From Pseudobdellovibrionaceae bacterium (lineage in GTDB: Bacteria > Bdellovibrionota > Bdellovibrionia > Bdellovibrionales > Bdellovibrionaceae), in contig JABWCN010000020.1 in the NCBI GenBank assembly GCA_013359135.1, positions 1 to 64,000 of the forward strand: 64,000 bases of DNA, written 5' to 3'. The position numbers were made by a program, and so were the translations under genes. Positions 2,324-54,415 of this stretch are shown one piece after another (position 1 is the first letter of the stretch; every line of letters begins with the position of its first letter). The notes under the pieces were generated by a model. The model ran no database searches. It was not told the DNA's origin and saw only the letters and a program-made list of their open reading frames with translations.

Positions 2324-4057
2324 ATGCTCGAACCAGAAATACAGGCGCAGATTTTAACATTGTACTACTCGGACAAAAGGTCCATGGAATCAATTTCCCG
2401 GGAGCTTGGAATTAATCGCAAAACTGTGATGAGAGTTGTTCAGCGAAGGTCCGTCCTCCTTGTGCCCAGTAAGCGTGAACGACGTAGTCATTTAGATCCG
2501 TTTAAAGAAATGATACGTGCCCAGTTACGCAAAGATTCCAGAGTTACTGGTACGGCCCTTTTAAATAATCTGCGTGGTTTGGGTTACACAGGCGGCATCA
2601 CTGTATTGCGTGATTTTTTAGTTTTAGAGCGAGGTCGCATGGAGAGACCAAGAGAGGCGTTCTTACGACTAGAGTTTGGCCCGGGCGAAGTAGCACAGGT
2701 GGATTGGGGTGAGTTCGGAGATGTTTTCGGTGATGGCATTAAAGTCCATTGTTTTGCCATGGTGTTGGCTTATTCCCGAATGATTTACGTAGAATTTACT
2801 CGCTCTGAAAAATTCGAAGAATTTATCCGCTGCCATGAGCATGCCTTCAATTTTTTTGGAGGAGTTCCTAGGGAGTGTTGGTATGACAACTTAACCTCGG
2901 CAGTAAGTGATCGTATGGGTGGACTTATTCGTTTTAATGCAAGATTTATGGCCTACATGGGTCATCACAGTGTGCGGCCTCATGCGTGCAATGTTGCCAG
3001 CGGCAACGAAAAGGGCCGAGTCGAGGATTTAATCAAATACATCCGAATGAACTTTTGGAGTGGGCGCACGTTTACCGACTTCGATGATTTAACAAAACAA
3101 TTTATAGTATGGCGTGATCAGATCGCAAACATCCGTGAACACCGAACCACCCGAAGGGTTGTGAAATTGCTTTTCGACTCAGACGAAAAACCAAAACTTT
3201 TGTCTCTGAATCCAGTTCCCTATGACACGGACGAGATATTCTCCAGGAATGTTACATCGGACTTCCACCTTCAATATGAAACCAATCGTTACTCTGTACC
3301 TTGGACGTTAGTGGGAATGACCATTACGGTTCGAGTGAATAGCCGGGAGCTTAAGATTTACTACAATGAAAAACTCATCTGTTCACACGCTCGAAGTTAC
3401 TTAAAAAACAAGGTGTTCACGACGGAGGCACACAGGACTGGATTATTAGAGCGAAAACCTGGCGCTACACGCGAAACCTGGCAACTTGGATATGTCAAGG
3501 GCCTTGGGCCGAGAATGGCGGAATATGTGGAGTTAGTTCGTAGGGGGCCGCGATCTTTAAAATACGAGCTTTCCCGTCTGGTGGCGCTTGTTACCGTTTA
3601 TGGTGAGCAGATTGTGCTTGATGCATGTTCTGAGTGTCTGGGTTCTGGAGTCGTTGGTGTGGATAATTTGGAGCTATTCTTGAAACGAAGCCATCATCCA
3701 TCGAAGGCGAATTTAATGCCTGAACTAATTAAATTTAACAATGAAAAACTAAACCGGGTTCATCCGGCGGTCGATCTTCGAAAATACGACGCGCTCTACT
3801 TCGAGGGGGAAAACCACACGAGCGCGTCGAAAGAAGTTACTGATGGAAACAATGAACAAGCTGCTGCAAGCAGGGCTCTCAGAGTTGAAGCTGAAATACT
3901 GGGGCCAAGCCCTGACAGAAGATCTTGTAAAGATGAAGGATCAGGAGCGAGAAGTGATCTCGAAGTATCTAATCCAGTGGATCGAGAAGGAGAAGGCGGA
4001 GCGACACTCATCAATGATCCAAAGCAAGATCAGAACAGCGAAATTTCGCAGAGTTGA
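2324..4057 (+). CDS. istA: IS21-family transposase IstA
   Basis: IstA is the DDE/RNase H-fold transposase that cuts and joins the element ends. The N-terminal HTH is visible as SMESISRELGINRKTVMRVV. The catalytic acids appear in order as AQVDWGEFG (D), CWYDNLTS (D) and NEKGRVEDLI (E). A Mu-type C-terminal beta-barrel region follows (FHLQYETNRYSVP). I take ATG 2324 (or GTG 2321), preceded by GGAGGA about seven bases away, as the start, giving 577 residues. The frame continues 215 bp into istB; the last ~70 residues are low-complexity and read like out-of-frame istB. The ancestral stop was therefore probably near 3840 and has been lost. Confidence 0.92.
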   Translation: MLEPEIQAQILTLYYSDKRSMESISRELGINRKTVMRVVQRRSVLLVPSKRERRSHLDPFKEMIRAQLRKDSRVTGTALLNNLRGLGYTGGITVLRDFLVLERGRMERPREAFLRLEFGPGEVAQVDWGEFGDVFGDGIKVHCFAMVLAYSRMIYVEFTRSEKFEEFIRCHEHAFNFFGGVPRECWYDNLTSAVSDRMGGLIRFNARFMAYMGHHSVRPHACNVASGNEKGRVEDLIKYIRMNFWSGRTFTDFDDLTKQFIVWRDQIANIREHRTTRRVVKLLFDSDEKPKLLSLNPVPYDTDEIFSRNVTSDFHLQYETNRYSVPWTLVGMTITVRVNSRELKIYYNEKLICSHARSYLKNKVFTTEAHRTGLLERKPGATRETWQLGYVKGLGPRMAEYVELVRRGPRSLKYELSRLVALVTVYGEQIVLDACSECLGSGVVGVDNLELFLKRSHHPSKANLMPELIKFNNEKLNRVHPAVDLRKYDALYFEGENHTSASKEVTDGNNEQAAASRALRVEAEILGPSPDRRSCKDEGSGARSDLEVSNPVDREGEGGATLINDPKQDQNSEISQS

Positions 4058-4783: not shown

Positions 4784-5197
4784 CCATTCAATTTCAGCCT
4801 CAGAAAGTGCAGATGTCTTATTAAGAGTGTAATTATCGTTAGCTGCCGAAAGTGCTTCTTTAGTAAATGGCGTCGAAATGCAAACAAGACCAGAAACGAC
4901 TTCGCGAATAAATAATTCCGCAGCTAAAAAACCACCGAAAGAATGACCGAGAGAAAACTTTTCTCCTGATTCATTAACAACTACATCAGCTAAAGCAGAA
5001 ACTATTTCCGCAAAAGATTTTTTACCCGTATAAGCAGAACCGTTTGTTCCTTGAATATCAACATACATAAGTTCAAAACTTCGTTTTAAAAGATCAAGGT
5101 CTCGAAGGGTATTTGAACTTAAGCCTGGCCCACCTGAGATAATAAAAAGCTTTGGTGCATTCTGTTTTTCTGATGGTACTCTTGTTAATTTAATCAT
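4784..5197 (-). pseudogene. alpha/beta hydrolase, N-terminal half (split by IS21 element)
   Basis: The first 138 residues of an alpha/beta hydrolase end at EAEIEW, exactly at the IS target site. Visible are the oxyanion-hole segment LFIISGGPGLSS (a proline-iminopeptidase-like GGPG) and the nucleophile elbow SLGHSFGGFLA with Ser at about 84. No signal peptide is seen, so the enzyme was cytoplasmic. The ATG overlaps the stop of the response-regulator gene by 4 bp (ATGA), which places the hydrolase in the same operon. After the insertion the frame runs ~20 codons into IS sequence before a stop. The substrate may relate to the ligand of the binding protein at 7916-9412, but that is a guess. Confidence 0.88.
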
Positions 5198-11091: not shown

Positions 11092-11379
11092 TTATCCTTT
11101 GTCACATTGTTTAGAGGTAGCTTTATAGCCTACAGAATCTATTTTATTTTTAATTTCATCAGATGAAGTAAGGGCGTCGTCATATTTTATAACAGCACTT
11201 TTTTCATCCAGTGAGACTTGAACATCCTTAATTCCTTTTAGCTTTTTGATCGCTGCTTTTGTCGTCACTGTGCAGGTAGCACAAGTCATTCCCTCAACAC
11301 TAAAACAAGCATTTCTAGTTTCAGCTAAAGCTATTTGAGAAAACCCAATTAACATTACAATGATTCCTAAATTTTTCAT
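11092..11379 (-). CDS. merP: periplasmic mercury-binding protein MerP
   Basis: This 95-residue protein has a signal peptide (MKNLGIIVMLIGFSQIALAE) followed by one heavy-metal-associated domain with the ligand motif GMTCATCT at about residues 30-37. MerP binds Hg(II) in the periplasm and passes it to MerT. It lies 26 bp downstream of merT and 3 bp upstream of merA. A possible extra C-terminal cysteine (KQCDKG) is unusual but small. The ribosome site AAGGGG precedes the ATG. Confidence 0.92.
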   Translation of the reverse strand: MKNLGIIVMLIGFSQIALAETRNACFSVEGMTCATCTVTTKAAIKKLKGIKDVQVSLDEKSAVIKYDDALTSSDEIKNKIDSVGYKATSKQCDKG

Positions 11380-11405
11380 GTGTAAGACCCCTTTCCATAG
11401 TTAAT

Positions 11406-24422: not shown

Positions 24423-26136
24423 AATTGGAATTTATGTTCGTGTCAGTACAGAGGAGCAGGCGCAGGTTGCTGATGGCTCAATCGAAAGCCAGCAACACCG
24501 AATCAATGGCTTTATTGACATCAAAAAACACCAAGAAAAAGGATGGGGAAAGGTCGTTGAAACCTATATTGATGATGGCTATTCCGCAGGAAGCACCAAC
24601 CGCCCTGCTTATCAACGAATGATTCGTGATCTTAAAACTGGTAAAATCAATTTAATCTTGGTGACAGATTTATCACGTCTATCGCGTAACATATCTGACT
24701 TTTGTGATCTCTATAAAGACTTCGGAAAGTACAAAGCAAATTTTCTTTCAATCAAAGAGCAATTCGATACAAGTACACCTATTGGCGAAATGATGGTTTT
24801 CAACATGGTTAATCTTGCTCAGTTTGAAAGAAAACAAACATCCGAAAGAATCTCAATGAACTTCCATTCACGGGCCATGCGTGGTCTTGTGAATGGTGGA
24901 AGTCCTTTGCTAGGCTATGACCGTGATCCATCAAATCCAGGAAAAAGAATTGTAAATGAAGATGAAGCCGAATTGGTTAAAAAGATTTTCCGTATGTACG
25001 ATGAAGGTCAAAGCCAGAATGCTGTTGCAGATCAGCTCACGAAAGATTGTGAGAAAAGAAAAGATTTGGGAAGTAAGAAATATCGCCACATCAAAGATGG
25101 TCGATGGACATTAAATGCTATTCAAAACATCCTAAAGAATTATGCCTACATTGGAAAACGTGAAGTGAATGTTGGCAATAAAAATGAAAAGCAAGAGTAT
25201 CTCAAGGCTTGGCAACAATACCAAATTGTTCCTGCTGCATGGGATGCGATTATTGACGAGAAGCTTTTTGCCCGTGTTCAGAAAAGAATGACAGAAGCTC
25301 ATCATAAGGAAAGAAAGCGTTTTGATGATGGCGAAAGACGCGCCTTTCTTGTCTCTGGGAGCATTAGGTGTGGCCATTGCGGAATGGCCTTAATTGGTCA
25401 GTCTGCTCACGGAAAAACACAAGTTCACCGCTACTACGGTCACAGACAAGTTGTTGGAGAAAAAATCGCTTGTCCAATTAAGCGTTTTCCGGCTGTTGAA
25501 ATTGAGACCGCAATTCTTCGACACTTGGATACAGTTTTGAGTGAACCTGGCTATCTTGATCAAATTGAACGCAATATTGAAAAAAGTGCTGGCGTAGATA
25601 AGAAAGCTACGAAACACAAATTCGACTCACTTCAAAAGTCGATTGAAAAAACGGAACGAGAAATTGAATCTATCTTTAAGCTCGTTACAAATATGGGGTC
25701 TGGCACGGCAGGTGCTGATCTTATCCAAGACAAACTACAAACGCTGGCAGAAAAAAAGAAGACATTGGAACAAGAGCTTAATCTTGTGATCCAAGCAGAG
25801 GAAAGTGCTGGCCAAGTTGAAACAGCAAAAAGACATATTGAGGCAAATGCTAAGGCCGTTAAGCTATCGCTTAAAAAGGCAAAGCCCCACTTACAGAAAA
25901 AACTTTTGGGTGCGCTTTTTCAGCAATTAGTTGCGACCGACACTGGCATTAAAGTCTTTTACCATTTGGCAGAATCTAAAAATTTAATTGGGAATTTAGT
26001 AAAAACAAAAAAGCCATCGGAGAAAAACTCCGATGGCGATTCTATTTCATCGAGCTGGAGAACAAGCCAAACCCTTGGATTTTTTTCGTCCAAGAGTTCG
26101 CCTATCCATTGTGTTGGTGGAGGCGGGGGGAATTGA
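24412..26136 (+). CDS. large serine recombinase, integrase of the element
   Basis: This 574-residue recombinase has a resolvase-type catalytic domain (IGIYVRVSTEEQ, nucleophile Ser12; LVTDLSRLSRN), a recombinase domain (about 165-270) and a zinc ribbon (IRCGHCGMALIG … ACPIKRFP). A long coiled coil follows (about 395-480). These are the parts of a large serine integrase. The final ~45 residues after VKTKK are encoded by what appears to be host DNA: the ssrA terminator, spacer, and the last 22 bp of tmRNA, ending CVGGGGGN. The native integrase stop was therefore probably lost or changed at the attachment junction. The protein may be active regardless, because the C-terminal tail lies beyond the known domains. 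Confidence 0.9.
   Translation: MQHKIGIYVRVSTEEQAQVADGSIESQQHRINGFIDIKKHQEKGWGKVVETYIDDGYSAGSTNRPAYQRMIRDLKTGKINLILVTDLSRLSRNISDFCDLYKDFGKYKANFLSIKEQFDTSTPIGEMMVFNMVNLAQFERKQTSERISMNFHSRAMRGLVNGGSPLLGYDRDPSNPGKRIVNEDEAELVKKIFRMYDEGQSQNAVADQLTKDCEKRKDLGSKKYRHIKDGRWTLNAIQNILKNYAYIGKREVNVGNKNEKQEYLKAWQQYQIVPAAWDAIIDEKLFARVQKRMTEAHHKERKRFDDGERRAFLVSGSIRCGHCGMALIGQSAHGKTQVHRYYGHRQVVGEKIACPIKRFPAVEIETAILRHLDTVLSEPGYLDQIERNIEKSAGVDKKATKHKFDSLQKSIEKTEREIESIFKLVTNMGSGTAGADLIQDKLQTLAEKKKTLEQELNLVIQAEESAGQVETAKRHIEANAKAVKLSLKKAKPHLQKKLLGALFQQLVATDTGIKVFYHLAESKNLIGNLVKTKKPSEKNSDGDSISSSWRTSQTLGFFSSKSSPIHCVGGGGGN
26001..26037 (-). terminator. intrinsic terminator of ssrA
   Basis: Read on the minus strand, GCCATCGGAG-TTTTT-CTCCGATGGC forms a perfect 10-bp stem followed by TTTTTTGTTTTT. 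The U-run is on the minus side only, so it serves the minus-strand tmRNA gene 78 bp upstream. It lies inside the 3' end of the recombinase frame. Confidence 0.85.
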
Positions 26137-26467
26137 ACCCCCGTCCGCAAGTGATCCACGAAAAGGCGCTACATACTTAGTCTTTGTTTTTAGTTTGACC
26201 ATCAGACTTCCAAAGACAAAATTCCAAAGGTCACTCCTCCAGTTTATTTAGGTTGGTGCCCTGGAGAAAACAACACGCAACCGGTACGGCATTAATGACA
26301 GTCTATTAGCTCAACACCGTCGATTCAGCTAGAGACCGTGGCAGAACTAAGCTGCCATTGCTACGTTTACGTCAGCAATTAAAAGTTTGCACCTTTTTAT
26401 CGAGGTCCTTGTGCGCCCCGGTATGCTCCCTTTGCTTCAGCGCCCACGTCGAAGCCGTGTCGCCCCC
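26115..26467 (-). ncRNA. ssrA: transfer-messenger RNA (tmRNA)
   Basis: tmRNA rescues stalled ribosomes and tags nascent proteins. The 353-nt gene begins GGGGGCGACACGGCTTCGAC and ends with the T-arm GGGGGTTCAATTCCCCC and acceptor …CGCCTCCACCA. The 5' GGGGGCG pairs with CGCCTCC in a 7-bp acceptor stem. The reading frame GCT-GAC-GTA-AAC-GTA-GCA-ATG-GCA-GCT-TAG gives a tag ADVNVAMAA (plus the charged Ala), ending in the usual hydrophobic AA. The terminator is at 26001-26037. The conjugative element sits immediately downstream of this gene. Confidence 0.96.
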
Positions 26468-32320: not shown

Positions 32321-33547
32321 ATGAAAAAAATTAAAGTTGCAAATCCCGTTGTCGAACTTGATGGCGATGAAATGACAAGAATCATTTGGGCCTTCATCAA
32401 AAATAAATTGATCACTCCCTATTTAGATATTGATATCAAGTATTTTGATTTAGGAATGGAAAACAGAGACAAAACCAATGACCAAGTAACAATTGACTCT
32501 GCTGAAGCCATCAAGAAATATAATGTTGGTATCAAGTGTGCGACTATTACTCCAGACGAAGCCAGAGTGAAAGAATTTAATCTAAAACAAATGTGGAAAT
32601 CACCAAATGGAACCATCAGAAATATCTTAGATGGAACTGTTTTCCGTGAACCTATCATTATGAAAAACGTTCCACGCTTAGTGCCTGGTTGGACAAAACC
32701 GATTGTTATCGGCAGACACGCTTTTGGTGATCAATACCGAGCTACTGACTTCGTAACTAAGGGTAAGGGTAAACTAACAATTACTTTTGAAGCAGAAAAT
32801 GGCGAGAAAATTTCTCACGAAGTTTATAATTTTAAAGGCGATGGTGTTGCCCTTGCTATGTACAATACCGATGAATCTATCAAAGGCTTTGCAAGATCAT
32901 GCTTCAATGTAGCACTAACTAAGAAGTGGCCTTTATACCTTTCAACTAAAAATACAATTTTGAAGAAGTATGATGGTCGATTCAAAGATATCTTCCAAGA
33001 AATCTACGAAAAAGAATTTAAAGCTAGTTATGCAGCTGCTGGCATCACCTATGAACACCGTTTAATCGATGACATGGTTGCTAGCTGTCTGAAGTGGGAT
33101 GGTGGTTTTGTTTGGGCTTGTAAAAATTATGACGGCGATGTGCAATCAGACACGGTTGCGCAGGGCTTTGGATCTCTTGGTCTAATGACTTCTGTTTTAA
33201 TCACTCCAGATGGAAAAACTATGGAATCAGAAGCTGCTCATGGGACTGTGACAAGACACTATCGCTTACACCAGCAAGGTAAACCAACCTCAACAAATCC
33301 AATCGCTTCTATCTTTGCTTGGACTAGAGGTCTTGCACACAGAGGAAAATTAGATAGCAATACTGATTTAATTAAGTTCGCGGAAACTTTAGAGAAAGTT
33401 TGTATTGAAACTGTTGAGTCAGGTCTTATGACAAAAGATCTTGCAGCTTGTATCTATGGAGATAAAATCCCAGCTGATAAATATTTAAACACTGAACCCT
33501 TCTTAGAGGCCATCGACAAGAATTTACAAAAAGCCTTGGGAAATTGA
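32321..33547 (+). CDS. icd: NADP-dependent isocitrate dehydrogenase
   Basis: This TCA-cycle enzyme oxidises isocitrate to 2-oxoglutarate with NADP. The 408-residue protein belongs to the homodimeric type II group shared with eukaryotes and some bacteria: [16 protein letters not shown] at the start, [19 protein letters not shown] in the substrate loop, [19 protein letters not shown], and [20 protein letters not shown] with [12 protein letters not shown] for NADP binding. All catalytic positions look present. It has its own promoter region (160 bp) and a strong terminator. Confidence 0.97.
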
Positions 33548-34038: not shown

Positions 34039-34236
34039 ATATTAGACTCCTTAAATTGGGTTATTCTTCCTCGGAACACAATAGTCTGTCATAAAAACTA
34101 TTGAAAGTATCAAAACTTTTGACAGTAAATTTTATAGAAGATATCTCTCATAAAGAGAAGTGCGGCTTTTGACCCCTTTAAAAACAACCTTAGCTGAATA
34201 AATTACAGCTATAAGATATTCCTCTATAATTTCTCT

Positions 34237-34412
34237 CTAGAGCGAAACTACTGTATTAAAAAAAACAGTAGGATTTGAAAAAATTAATTGTTAATCAGCT
34301 CACTCATCTTAACTAATTTTTCTAAATAAACTTAGAGTAGAATTTTTAAGATATCGTACATGGGTGGGTTCAGGGTATCTAACTATTTTTTTGAAGTTAG
34401 ATACCCTTTTTA
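34237..34412 (+). ncRNA. tandem small RNA, copy 1
   Basis: A -10 box TATAAT (34225-34230) with a possible -35 TTACAG (16-bp spacer) precedes an RNA of about 176 nt. It has a first hairpin CTACTGT/ACAGTAG (34248-34271), then TTGTTAATCA, then the block GTACATGGGTGGGTT (34356-34370). It ends in an intrinsic terminator GGGTATCTAAC/GTTAGATACCC + TTTTTATTTT (34373-34412). A second copy of the same plan lies 308 bp downstream. No open frame spans it. The family is not one I recognise (not 6S, SRP, RNase P or a known riboswitch). Confidence 0.75.
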
Positions 34413-34544
34413 TTTTCTCTGCCTTGATTGAGGATAATTTAGCTTTCATATAGAGGTCCTACTCAAATAATTCGTCTAACATGAACAAAGTGAAATAGAG
34501 ATTGAATAAACTTCATCTGTAAATTGTATCTCTATAATTTATTA

Positions 34545-34728
34545 CTAGCGTGATTTTACCGTACGCAAAACAAACAGTATCACTTTCAAAAAAACTTTGT
34601 TAAACACTAACCACTTCTTAATAGCAATGCGTCTATAGAAGTATAGAGTTGAAATAAACTCTTTGTACATGGGTGGGTTGAGGGTATCTAACTTTAATAT
34701 ATTTCCTCTGGTTAGATACCCTTTTTAT
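34545..34728 (+). ncRNA. tandem small RNA, copy 2
   Basis: It has the same layout as copy 1: -10 TATAAT (34533-34538) followed by a similar start region (TTTATTACTAGCG), a hairpin closed by GTGAT/ATCAC (34550-34583), TTGTTAAACA, the identical 15-mer GTACATGGGTGGGTT (34665-34679), and a terminator with identical stem GGGTATCTAAC/GTTAGATACCC (34682-34721) plus TTTTTATT. The distance from -10 to the 15-mer is 132 bp versus 131 in copy 1. The intervening sequence has diverged, while the ends and helices are kept. Confidence 0.75.
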
Positions 34729-34876
34729 TCCAAATTCTTAGATTTTCAGTCTTCGCTTAAAGAATTTCATAAAATTTAAATGACTAGTTGCTGTTTAAAT
34801 CAATCTAATTGATTTTAAATTTATTTCCTCTTGGCTGCTGAATTGCAAATTGGATTCTGCAAAGTCGGGGGATTTC

Positions 34877-36169
34877 ATGCTAACATATACACTTTCAAAA
34901 AATCAGATCTATAACAACTCACAACTGTTAAAAGCTATGGAAAACAATAAAAAACTCTTTTTCCTGAAAGGTGATTTCAAATTAAATCCAAACTCTGTTA
35001 TACAAGGTCATGGATTACTACGTAGAGACCTCAATTTAGAGAAACAGACTCAATATTTGTTGAAAAATATCCTCAACAATTCAAGTTTAGAAGAATATTT
35101 CCAGAGCATAGAAAAACAATTTCAAAACAAAAAAAACCATCTTATCTTACAACATCTAACTCGTAAAATTTCATTAACAAACATGCGTCTACAACAAGAA
35201 ATGTTTAAAAAGTTCTCTTTGGAATCCTACGACATAGAAAAAATAACTCCCGTTGAAGTCATACCAGTCAATTTATATTCTCTGCGACCTTTACTCACCA
35301 ATCCCTATCAAGCAAATGTGCGTCACTTATTTAACTTTAAGCCTAAATTTGAAACTAAAAACACACTTCTAGCTTTTACTGACATCAAAGAAAATGAATC
35401 CTTACATACTGTATTACCATGTGTTGAAAAAAATTTTGATTCTAAAACACTTGATAAATACAGAACTGGAATTTTTGAACATGCAGAAAGAAACTTTTAT
35501 CTTTTTTCAATGTTATACCCATTAGCGTCTCAAGTTGGACCTTGGAAAATTTTTGCAAATAAAAAAGAAGAACTTAATGATCTAGATCCATCTGATGCGA
35601 GCTTACTTGCCGAACTTTGTACGTTTGCTCTTATCATTAAAGAGTTTTCAGGAGTTCAAAATTTTTCACAAACACTTATATTTGATACTCTCTTTAATTT
35701 GGGGCGTAGGTCCTTTATCAGCACTAACTACTCAACTAATAGCTTCGCCAATGAAGAAAGTAGAAAAAATGATCCAAACAAAGACTTAATTTCTAAAGAA
35801 CTAATTTGTTATCTCTGGAATAAATTAGTTCAATTTGAAGTCATTCACTTTAAAGATAATAAACTAAGCTACAATGATAATAAGACATTGCCATGCTTTA
35901 TTAATATTCTAGAAGAAATTCAAAATATCTACTTTCAGTTTCTTCATCACAATACAGAAAGTGTCAGTCTTCGAAATAGAAAAAGACTAAGTTCTTTTGT
36001 CTTTTCCTGGAAAGAAAAAAACATTTCTAGAAAAAATGAAATGCTTCCTTTGTCATTAAACCTTAATGAAATATTCAATAACTGTCGAGAGATTCCACTG
36101 ACAGTGAGCTTCACACCGACTTTTGCATTTCCAACATTAAGTGAAACTGAAATAGTTTCTTATGCTTAA
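34877..36169 (+). CDS. orphan protein downstream of the tandem RNAs
   Basis: This 430-residue protein has no signal peptide and no recognised family. It is Asn/Lys/Leu-rich and mostly helical, with an N-terminal LTYTLSKNQIYNNSQLLKAM and a central MLYPLASQVGPWKIFANKKE. ATG 34877 follows an excellent ribosome site (GGGGGA); an ATG at 34850 has none. Some size and helix features recall TIGR02147 proteins (430 vs ~300 residues), but the opening YxDYRxFL signature is missing. The two small RNAs lie directly upstream on the same strand, so they could act on it in cis or trans (speculative). Confidence 0.65.
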   Translation: MLTYTLSKNQIYNNSQLLKAMENNKKLFFLKGDFKLNPNSVIQGHGLLRRDLNLEKQTQYLLKNILNNSSLEEYFQSIEKQFQNKKNHLILQHLTRKISLTNMRLQQEMFKKFSLESYDIEKITPVEVIPVNLYSLRPLLTNPYQANVRHLFNFKPKFETKNTLLAFTDIKENESLHTVLPCVEKNFDSKTLDKYRTGIFEHAERNFYLFSMLYPLASQVGPWKIFANKKEELNDLDPSDASLLAELCTFALIIKEFSGVQNFSQTLIFDTLFNLGRRSFISTNYSTNSFANEESRKNDPNKDLISKELICYLWNKLVQFEVIHFKDNKLSYNDNKTLPCFINILEEIQNIYFQFLHHNTESVSLRNRKRLSSFVFSWKEKNISRKNEMLPLSLNLNEIFNNCREIPLTVSFTPTFAFPTLSETEIVSYA

Positions 36170-36183
36170 ATTTAGTTAACTTA

Positions 36184-38370
36184 TCATGATATTTTGATTT
36201 CAGTCGATGAAAGGCCAAGAAGATTCTCTTCGATACTTTTCATCAATGATTTAACCCTTTGAAGCCGTTTTATAAGTATTTCATTTTCATTTGGCTCTAT
36301 CTTGTTAACATTTCCCTTTAAGGTTTGTAAATAGTCGTTGGTTTTATAAACAACTGGATCTTTTTCAAAATAAAATCGAAGCAACTCTTCTATTACATAC
36401 AATGCACTTGCTTTAAATAATGGCTTTTCAGAAAAAAGTAGTTTGTTTAACTCATTCACGTCAGTTGCATTCAATGATCTTTTCAGCTTAGCTAGAAGAT
36501 ACACTGCCAAAATACGATTTTCTTGTTGCCATGATTTAAGATTATTTTTTAACGTTGAAATATTATCATTATAAAACTCAAAAACTTCAATCGCATTAGA
36601 AACGACTCTTGGATTTGATGAAAGTAAATAATTACGAATCAACTCTTCCCATTTTTCACTCCACAAGTTTTTATGCACTAAATCTTTAACAATAAGTACT
36701 AGGCTGGGCAAGAAAGAATACTCCATATCCTTTGATTTAATGATTGCAAAATGATCGCTTAGAACTTGCATCAACTTCAAAGAAATTTCAGGCTCTGGAA
36801 TAGTTACATTGGACTTTTTTAACGACTGAATCAAGTAAAAGACAGGGTTATAGTAGTTTTCCTTAAAGTACTTATCAATAAGATCTAGAGATTGAAAAAT
36901 ATCTTCTCGACTCCTAAAATACTCTAGAAACCTAAGTCTTCCTCTCACATGCTCAAAGTTATGTGGCTCAATATTTTTTGAAAAATAGCTAGCCATACTC
37001 AAAAATTCTTTGATTTCATAAACTTTAACATCATCGTCAAAGCCTTTCAAAGTAGAAAATTTTTCTGTTGGGCCTGACAGAATAGAAGAAAAAGCCTGAA
37101 AAACTTCAGTCTTAGCAATTAACGTATTTTCATTCTTATCAGAAACACTGCCTAGGAGTCGAACTGACTCAATCAAAGGAACTCCAGCAAAAGCATATCC
37201 TGTGTTTAGCTTTACAAAGCGTAACTGACCGTGAGAAATTGACGATTTTAACAAAAATCTGTGCCCATACTGTCTGTAAATTTTATTATCAAGCTCCCTA
37301 GACCACTCAAAAATAGCTTTTACACAAAATAAAGCCCTAAGTTGCTTATCTGATTGTTCCACTTCCTGAGTAGCTGAATCGATGACATTTTTAGTCAGTA
37401 AACGGTTTTTTGTTAAATCCAGGTTTTTAAAAATGAAAATAACTTCATCACCAATTATTTGATATATTTCTCCATGGTAGCGCTTAATAATATCATTCGT
37501 TACGGCAAAATATTCATTCAATACAGTCACAATATGCTCTTCTTTTTTTTCTAAAAAAATTTGAGTATAACCATTCAAATCAATCCTAACTACCACGCAA
37601 GGGATTGTTGTCAAGCTAGGTGTATGCGCCTTAATTTCATTTGTTAAAGCCTCACCAACTGTGTTTTGTAAAATTGAAATACTTTCCTTTTGTTGAGAAT
37701 TGATACTATCTAAAGTACTTGTTGAGTCGATAAGAGCTTGCGCTTCTTTACTTTTTGCTTTTATCTCTGAAAGACTATTTCTATCACCTTTTTTTAGCAA
37801 CTGCTCGATGGTTAAAAAATCTTTTAGTATAAGAAAAATTAAAACGGCAACAAACAAAGTGATGATAATTACATCTTTTATAAATGGAACGATATTTTCC
37901 TTATGTTCCCATTTTAGATAGCTGATCAAATCAGAGCCATAGGCAACAAACAAAGTGTATTTATCAATTTGAATCACACGAATAACGACATTAGAGTATT
38001 TAAGGAATTTCTGAGTATCACGAACTTGATAATCTTTAAAATACTGACAGGCTTTATCTCCTTCTTTTTTAGTGTATTCAGAAATCACTTTTTCTGTATT
38101 CTCTTCTGCTTTTCTAAAGCAGAAGAGGTCAATGAATTGTAATGAAACGGCCTTGTTCATTTGCTGTTTAACTAAATCTTCATTTTCAGAGTAAAGATAG
38201 TCTTTAGTTGATTCTAGAATAAATTCAATTTGTCTGTTTTTTGATTCTTCTACTTTTTCCCTAATAAGCAAGCTTGAGTATATCGTCTGAACTAGACTTA
38301 ATCCCATGTAGCCAAGCCAGAATGAAACTAGTAAAATTATGACAAAAGATTTTTTCTTTATAGACTTCAT
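36184..38370 (-). CDS. membrane class III nucleotide cyclase with HEAT-like tail
   Basis: This 728-residue protein has a TM segment (about 8-30), an extracytoplasmic domain (about 31-150), and a second TM (DVIIITLFVAVLIFLILKDF). A coiled coil then leads to a class III adenylate/guanylate cyclase domain: VVVRIDLNGYTQIFLEKKEE with the metal Asp, and YHGEIYQIIGDEVIFIFKN with the second metal Asp. The C-terminal ~230 residues are helical repeats of HEAT type (SNPRVVSNAIEVFEFYN, ENRILAVYLLAKLKRSL). Likely a sensor that makes cAMP or cGMP; the base-specifying residues cannot be assigned safely by eye. Its ATG overlaps the stop of the secreted-protein gene by 4 bp. Confidence 0.85.
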   Translation of the reverse strand: MKSIKKKSFVIILLVSFWLGYMGLSLVQTIYSSLLIREKVEESKNRQIEFILESTKDYLYSENEDLVKQQMNKAVSLQFIDLFCFRKAEENTEKVISEYTKKEGDKACQYFKDYQVRDTQKFLKYSNVVIRVIQIDKYTLFVAYGSDLISYLKWEHKENIVPFIKDVIIITLFVAVLIFLILKDFLTIEQLLKKGDRNSLSEIKAKSKEAQALIDSTSTLDSINSQQKESISILQNTVGEALTNEIKAHTPSLTTIPCVVVRIDLNGYTQIFLEKKEEHIVTVLNEYFAVTNDIIKRYHGEIYQIIGDEVIFIFKNLDLTKNRLLTKNVIDSATQEVEQSDKQLRALFCVKAIFEWSRELDNKIYRQYGHRFLLKSSISHGQLRFVKLNTGYAFAGVPLIESVRLLGSVSDKNENTLIAKTEVFQAFSSILSGPTEKFSTLKGFDDDVKVYEIKEFLSMASYFSKNIEPHNFEHVRGRLRFLEYFRSREDIFQSLDLIDKYFKENYYNPVFYLIQSLKKSNVTIPEPEISLKLMQVLSDHFAIIKSKDMEYSFLPSLVLIVKDLVHKNLWSEKWEELIRNYLLSSNPRVVSNAIEVFEFYNDNISTLKNNLKSWQQENRILAVYLLAKLKRSLNATDVNELNKLLFSEKPLFKASALYVIEELLRFYFEKDPVVYKTNDYLQTLKGNVNKIEPNENEILIKRLQRVKSLMKSIEENLLGLSSTEIKIS

Positions 38371-54269: not shown

Positions 54270-54368
54270 GTGCCGAGTCCCATACAATAGCGTCTTTGAC
54301 GAATCCCGCCAGATCCGGAAGGAAGCAACGGTAATCGAAGAACTATGTGATATGGGGTGCTCGGCGCT
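54270..54368 (+). ncRNA. ffs: signal recognition particle RNA (4.5S)
   Basis: The conserved domain IV is plain: CCAGATCCGGAAGGAAGCAA with the GGAA tetraloop. The ends pair as a long helix: GCCGAG and TCCCATA (from 54272) with TATGGGG and CTCGGC (to 54365). Length is about 100 nt, the small bacterial form. It lies 48 bp before dnaX, a common arrangement. It binds Ffh for co-translational targeting. Confidence 0.95.
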
Positions 54369-54415
54369 TTTAGTTTGAGGCAAATCAAAAACCAATCACA
54401 AATTAAGGCGTCTAA

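Follow-up and report, generated by a model that had tools for sequence, protein, structure and literature searches.

What do the two similar stretches encode that follow the isocitrate dehydrogenase gene icd in the 64,000-nt piece of Pseudobdellovibrionaceae DNA analysed here (the window)? They occupy positions 34225-34412 and 34533-34728, run head to tail and are diverged copies, 71% identical. A sequence-only reading had taken them for two tandem paralogues of a new small RNA, and this proposal is well supported by homologues at the same locus in five other genomes and by an Rfam search without a match. We consider the copies members of a real, previously unlisted and genus-restricted family of predicted small-RNA genes of the Bdellovibrionales.

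Anatomy and relatedness of the two units

Several landmarks named in the earlier reading are indeed present, all of them on the forward strand. Each unit contains a TATAAT box (34225-34230 and 34533-34538, as read in the sequence), a TTGTTAA block (34288-34294 and 34598-34604), the identical 15-mer GTACATGGGTGGGTT (34356-34370 and 34665-34679, at 131 and 132 bp from the -10 box) and a terminator, the stems GGGTATCTAAC/GTTAGATACCC being identical in both units and the loops different in length and sequence. The exact 15-mer has two sites in the 3.84-Mb genome, those of units 1 and 2, and its core, ATGGGTGGGTT in unit 1, is the proposed seed. The candidate promoter of unit 1 (34202-34230) combines ATTACA and TATAAT at a distance of 17 nt and matches the consensus at 10 of 12 positions, a score that equally numerous promoter-like sites reach in shuffled sequence. 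For unit 2, the -10 region is TATCTCTATAAT (34527-34538). The -35 boxes of both units are weak, ATTACA in unit 1 included. The predicted transcripts are ~176 nt (34237-34412) and ~184 nt long (34545-34728), and the covariance model described below scores them at 116.5 and 125.3 bits, respectively. The intrinsic terminator of unit 1 (34373-34412; stem 34373-34383/34396-34406) has a loop of ~10-12 nt and a T tail, and that of unit 2 (34682-34728; stem 34682-34692/34711-34721) has the same stems around a loop of ~16-18 nt. A consensus terminator scanner called neither of them because the loops exceed its 8-nt limit.

Are the units paralogous genes, or do they look alike by virtue of their terminators? 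With unit 1 as query, blastn retrieved unit 2 at E=1.1e-10 (69% identity), and a blastn search of 59 relatives with the unit gave, besides units 1 and 2, short AT-rich matches only. After removal of the box, the 15-mer and the terminator, the alignment of the remaining unit bodies still surpassed those of 1000 out of 1000 dinucleotide-shuffled pairs (z ~5). Since the bodies are related without these three elements, the copies are best understood as paralogous genes and not as chance look-alike terminators. Similarity is also found in the 44 nt upstream of the -10 boxes, where 6-13 of 1000 shuffles were as good. Judged by sequence only, the locus has the arrangement of sibling sRNAs, that is, adjacent related genes with a promoter and a terminator each, the -35 box of unit 2 being the weak point. 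A tandem duplication of the gene in the present species, yielding the two paralogues, thus appears well supported.

A genus-restricted family at a constant locus

One homologue is present in every other genome of the genus, five in all (their records include Bdellovibrionaceae MAGs such as UBA2351 and UBA2316), which makes seven copies in six genomes. The homologues are located in G003 (L073, ~4799-4960), G001 (L074, minus strand, 11233-11402), G004 (L075, ~3098-3283), G005 (L076, minus strand) and G002 (L077, minus strand). All seven copies sit on the strand of icd, between this gene and a cyclase-like gene that is specific to the genus, and the locus is constant in the six genomes despite gain and loss of flanking genes. 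In the window, icd lies upstream (32321-33547, forward strand; Pfam Iso_dh, 2.4e-70; orthologues in relatives) and the gene for the cyclase-like membrane protein lies downstream (36184-38370, reverse strand), convergent with the sRNAs. The protein encoded by the latter, which was found in no other genus, contains a class III cyclase-like domain (RIDLNGYTQIF...) that has diverged; an orthologue gave a weak Guanylate_cyc match (E=0.016) that falls below the Pfam cut-off.

We built a covariance model from the seven copies; run against 140 genomes of the order under stricter filters that can lose weak matches, it returned exactly these seven at 111-172 bits and everything else below 30 bits. A second search with a looser cut-off in 41 genomes of the family, run with the same kind of filters, found nothing between 111 and 25 bits. 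The best match outside the family, in G043 at a chance-level 29 bits, was rejected, as it overlaps the start of a protein gene. The sequence-only reading had contemplated that such a model might find terminators only; full-length copies, upstream portions included, were recovered, an outcome that speaks for that reading. Because the seven copies had trained the model, independent leave-out tests were also run: with a profile of unit 2 and G003, unit 1 was found at E=2.4e-14, and units 1 and 2 as a profile retrieved G003 at E=8e-7 in 204 kb. A spread across Bdellovibrionota is not supported; within the reach of these searches, the family occurs in a single genus. Other genera yielded near-matches of the 15-mer, which were discarded, those read showing no terminator directly behind them, and phage-borne spread was likewise set aside after two pattern scans of viral contigs with zero matches.

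Two sub-lineages and the elements they share

The seven copies fall into two sets, one formed by units 1 and 2 together with G003 (57-71% identity) and the other by G001, G002, G004 and G005 (72-93%). Identity between the sets is ~50% and the bodies are not alignable above chance, so the unity of the family rests on synteny, core and terminator. Both sets share their locus and strand, the stem of the terminator and, immediately 5′ of the terminator, the core ATGGGYGGKTT. The core, nearly invariant and the best-kept stretch across the whole family, is present in seven of seven members, with ATG replaced by TTG in one. When one mismatch at most was allowed, the set 1 core was found in three of the four set 2 intervals (G005 has two mismatches), each time with a terminator directly 3′, a combination seen 2 times in 2000 shuffled intervals. 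The distance from the candidate -10 box to the core is 135, 136 and 118 in set 1 and ~137-139 in three of the four set 2 genomes. The terminator stems CACTTGAT and TATCTAAC differ by transitions only, each matched on the partner strand; in 8 of 12 pairs both partners have changed between the sub-lineages, and pairing holds in 96% of cells. These changes mostly represent one difference between two sets and therefore count as one line of evidence, not eight. Among the four genomes of set 2, the sequence is highly conserved along the RNA and loses conservation abruptly past the terminator.

Kept ends and helices with drift in between had been read as the mark of functional RNA paralogues. Between the sub-lineages this holds for the 3′ module; the upstream helices are not kept. 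Two sub-lineages as different as these show what selection keeps, namely the 3′ core and the terminator.

The first hairpin proposed for unit 1, CTACTGT/ACAGTAG with an A-rich loop (34248-34271), is firmly predicted in both the MFE and the centroid folds, whereas its proposed counterpart in unit 2, GTGAT/ATCAC, would consist of 5 bp across a 24-nt gap and is absent from both kinds of fold. The 15-mer had been described as unpaired, a description at odds with unit 1, whose core pairs with GCUCACUCAU at a probability near 1; the mean unpaired probability of the 15-mer is 0.21 in unit 1 vs 0.40 in unit 2. Throughout set 1 the core is predicted to be partly or fully paired (mean unpaired 0.21, 0.40 and 0.49). 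The set 2 RNAs are predicted to fold into three stem-loops, the third being a long GAACCC...GGGGTTC hairpin, followed by the core and the terminator, and in these folds their core is mostly single-stranded (mean unpaired 0.60-0.77) between the long hairpin and the terminator. The only structure common to both sub-lineages is the terminator plus a 4-bp AACC-type helix.

How might the RNAs act?

The reading that we favour, and hold to be somewhat probable, is that the units are stand-alone sRNAs that act by base pairing in trans, with the G-rich core as seed and probably without Hfq or ProQ. Each unit would be transcribed independently as a discrete small RNA of ~176 or ~184 nt. The AUGGGYGGKUU core just 5′ of the terminator would pair with C-rich stretches of target mRNAs, and such pairing would alter their translation or stability. 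Before it could pair, the core of unit 1 would need to be freed from the internal helix in which it is predicted to sit, and for this reason the siblings may differ in readiness. The analysis shows the anatomy of the units, their homology, the conservation of their locus and their absence from Rfam; transcription, the seed role, trans action and regulation are what we infer.

Searches for Hfq (PF17209) and ProQ (PF04352) were negative in seven of seven genomes (G000-G005 and B. bacteriovorus HD100), E. coli controls being positive for both, so that the genomes encode no detectable chaperone of the Hfq- or ProQ-dependent class. Consequently, there is no sign here of the way in which sRNAs of this type most often act in Gram-negative bacteria, and a trans-acting sRNA would work without the two proteins or via another chaperone; its action is probably independent of both. 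As an aside, abundant sRNA expression has been reported for B. bacteriovorus, yet both proteins went undetected in HD100. A more daring extension, that Hfq/ProQ-free siblings of predatory bacteria retain a short G-rich seed beside the terminator as their sole kept sequence while all other parts are remodelled, and that masking of the seed in one copy and its exposure in the other provide one switchable and one ready regulator, strikes us as quite improbable.

A search for exact complements of the 11-nt core returned 49 sites vs 35 for the reversed control, little or no excess, and 6 of the 49 were the family's own copies. The complement sites that were sampled were not shared sense-strand sites near start codons. 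A conserved family with a fixed locus and a short invariant core offers a testable entry to post-transcriptional control in bacteria where Hfq and ProQ are undetected.

Alternative explanations

Could the core serve a protein instead of an mRNA? A protein-binding or sponge RNA, in which the core and 3′ end titrate an RNA-binding protein as CsrB/RsmZ does with CsrA or 6S RNA with RNA polymerase, is unlikely in our judgement. A core kept while the bodies drift would suit a protein site as well, the conserved part being the 3′ module, and GUACAUGGGUGG loosely resembles the CsrA SELEX consensus. However, there is a single core per RNA and no array. RNAs of the CsrB/RsmZ type have multiple GGA motifs in hairpin loops, whereas the single GGA of unit 1 lies outside the core and unit 2 contains none, so the GGA of CsrA sites is not kept. 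As for 6S RNA (RF00013), the units resemble it in being stand-alone genes of ~180 nt, but the locus gave no RF00013 match even at E up to 5, and true 6S genes are encoded elsewhere, here on another contig and likewise away from this locus in all relatives searched (present in 20 of 20 genomes).

The units could also be promoter-terminator cassettes or decaying duplicates that produce a functionless RNA, their similarity reflecting duplication and shared descent. Bodies that drift freely, to the point of being unalignable between sub-lineages, and the restriction to one genus would fit such a history. We find it distinctly unlikely, because the locus is the same in six of six genomes while flanking genes come and go, the core hardly varies although intergenic DNA past the terminator diverges, and paired changes maintain the terminator stem.

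That the units are cis-acting elements, such as a leader, a riboswitch or attenuator, or the 3′ UTR of a neighbouring gene, is very improbable. Hairpins followed by a terminator are the typical layout of an attenuator, and a co-directional ORF begins at 34850, ~120 bp downstream of unit 2; none of the other genomes of the genus, however, gave a match to this ORF. With the upstream gene divergent in the window and in G003, and the downstream gene convergent in G003 and G004, neither an mRNA leader nor a 3′ UTR can be the common explanation. Riboswitches and other Rfam families were dismissed for lack of a match at gathering score, and permissive Rfam searches of the units yielded chance-level matches or none; within the window, Rfam recognised only tmRNA and SRP RNA. 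The frame that starts at ATGGGTGGG is lost beyond four codons. This last point also led us to drop a coding explanation: the ATGGG frame ends after 4 codons in G003 and after 6 in G001 and G002. The changes seen within ATGGGYGGKTT are synonymous with respect to Met-Gly-Gly, and the start codon is either ATG or TTG; the other small ORFs vary from copy to copy, none of them being conserved. Finally, an antisense RNA against the mRNA 3′ end of the convergent cyclase-like gene is scarcely credible. It is true that this gene is consistently found near the sRNA, and that in G005 ~20 bp separate its stop codon from the terminator of the sRNA; but a further gene intervenes in the window (1.3 kb, 34850-36169), in G004 (chemoreceptor-like) and in G001 (another ORF).

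Relation to known small RNAs

If the units are trans-acting siblings, they would have precedents. Judged by analogy, the family is ordinary as a kind, sibling sRNAs being already known. In Neisseria, NgncR_162 and NgncR_163 are encoded by adjacent sibling genes, are 78% identical and share seed-like elements (PMC9973317). The likeness to our units (two adjacent sRNA genes, 78% identity there and 71% here, shared seed-like elements) is one of arrangement, with no sequence relation claimed. The Neisseria siblings differ in having three stem-loops and in pairing through the single-stranded region of SL2 and the SL1-SL2 linker, and their targets are known (PMC9973317), whereas none were found for the present units.

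Closer in taxonomy, RNA-seq of HD100 revealed eight attack-phase sRNAs for which no significant homology was found outside B. bacteriovorus (PMC3627812). Like our units, APsRNA1-7 and merRNA are intergenic, of similar size (APsRNA5 has 176-177 nt) and from the same bacterial family (PMC3627812). A profile search of the units against APsRNA1, 3, 4, 5 and merRNA gave no match, nor did the covariance model in the HD100 genome, the search by which APsRNA2, 6 and 7 were covered. A c-di-GMP-I aptamer was found in HD100 (G059) at the published position of merRNA (PMC3627812); merRNA carries this aptamer and the present units do not.

Other features of the region

The ORF at 34850-36169 (forward strand), which separates the sRNAs from the cyclase-like gene, encodes 439 aa without a Pfam family; its only relatives, weak ones, were found in G024 (28% identity) and G044, with none elsewhere in the genus. 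In G003, a long inverted repeat composed of ATACCCGATAGGGTATAGTATTATCAT and its near-complement directly follows icd (L073, 2719-2780); it is perhaps a terminator or an operator, unrelated to the sRNA. The window also encodes a tmRNA (26115-26467, reverse strand) with the tag ADVNVAMAA and a small SRP RNA (54271-54369, forward strand).
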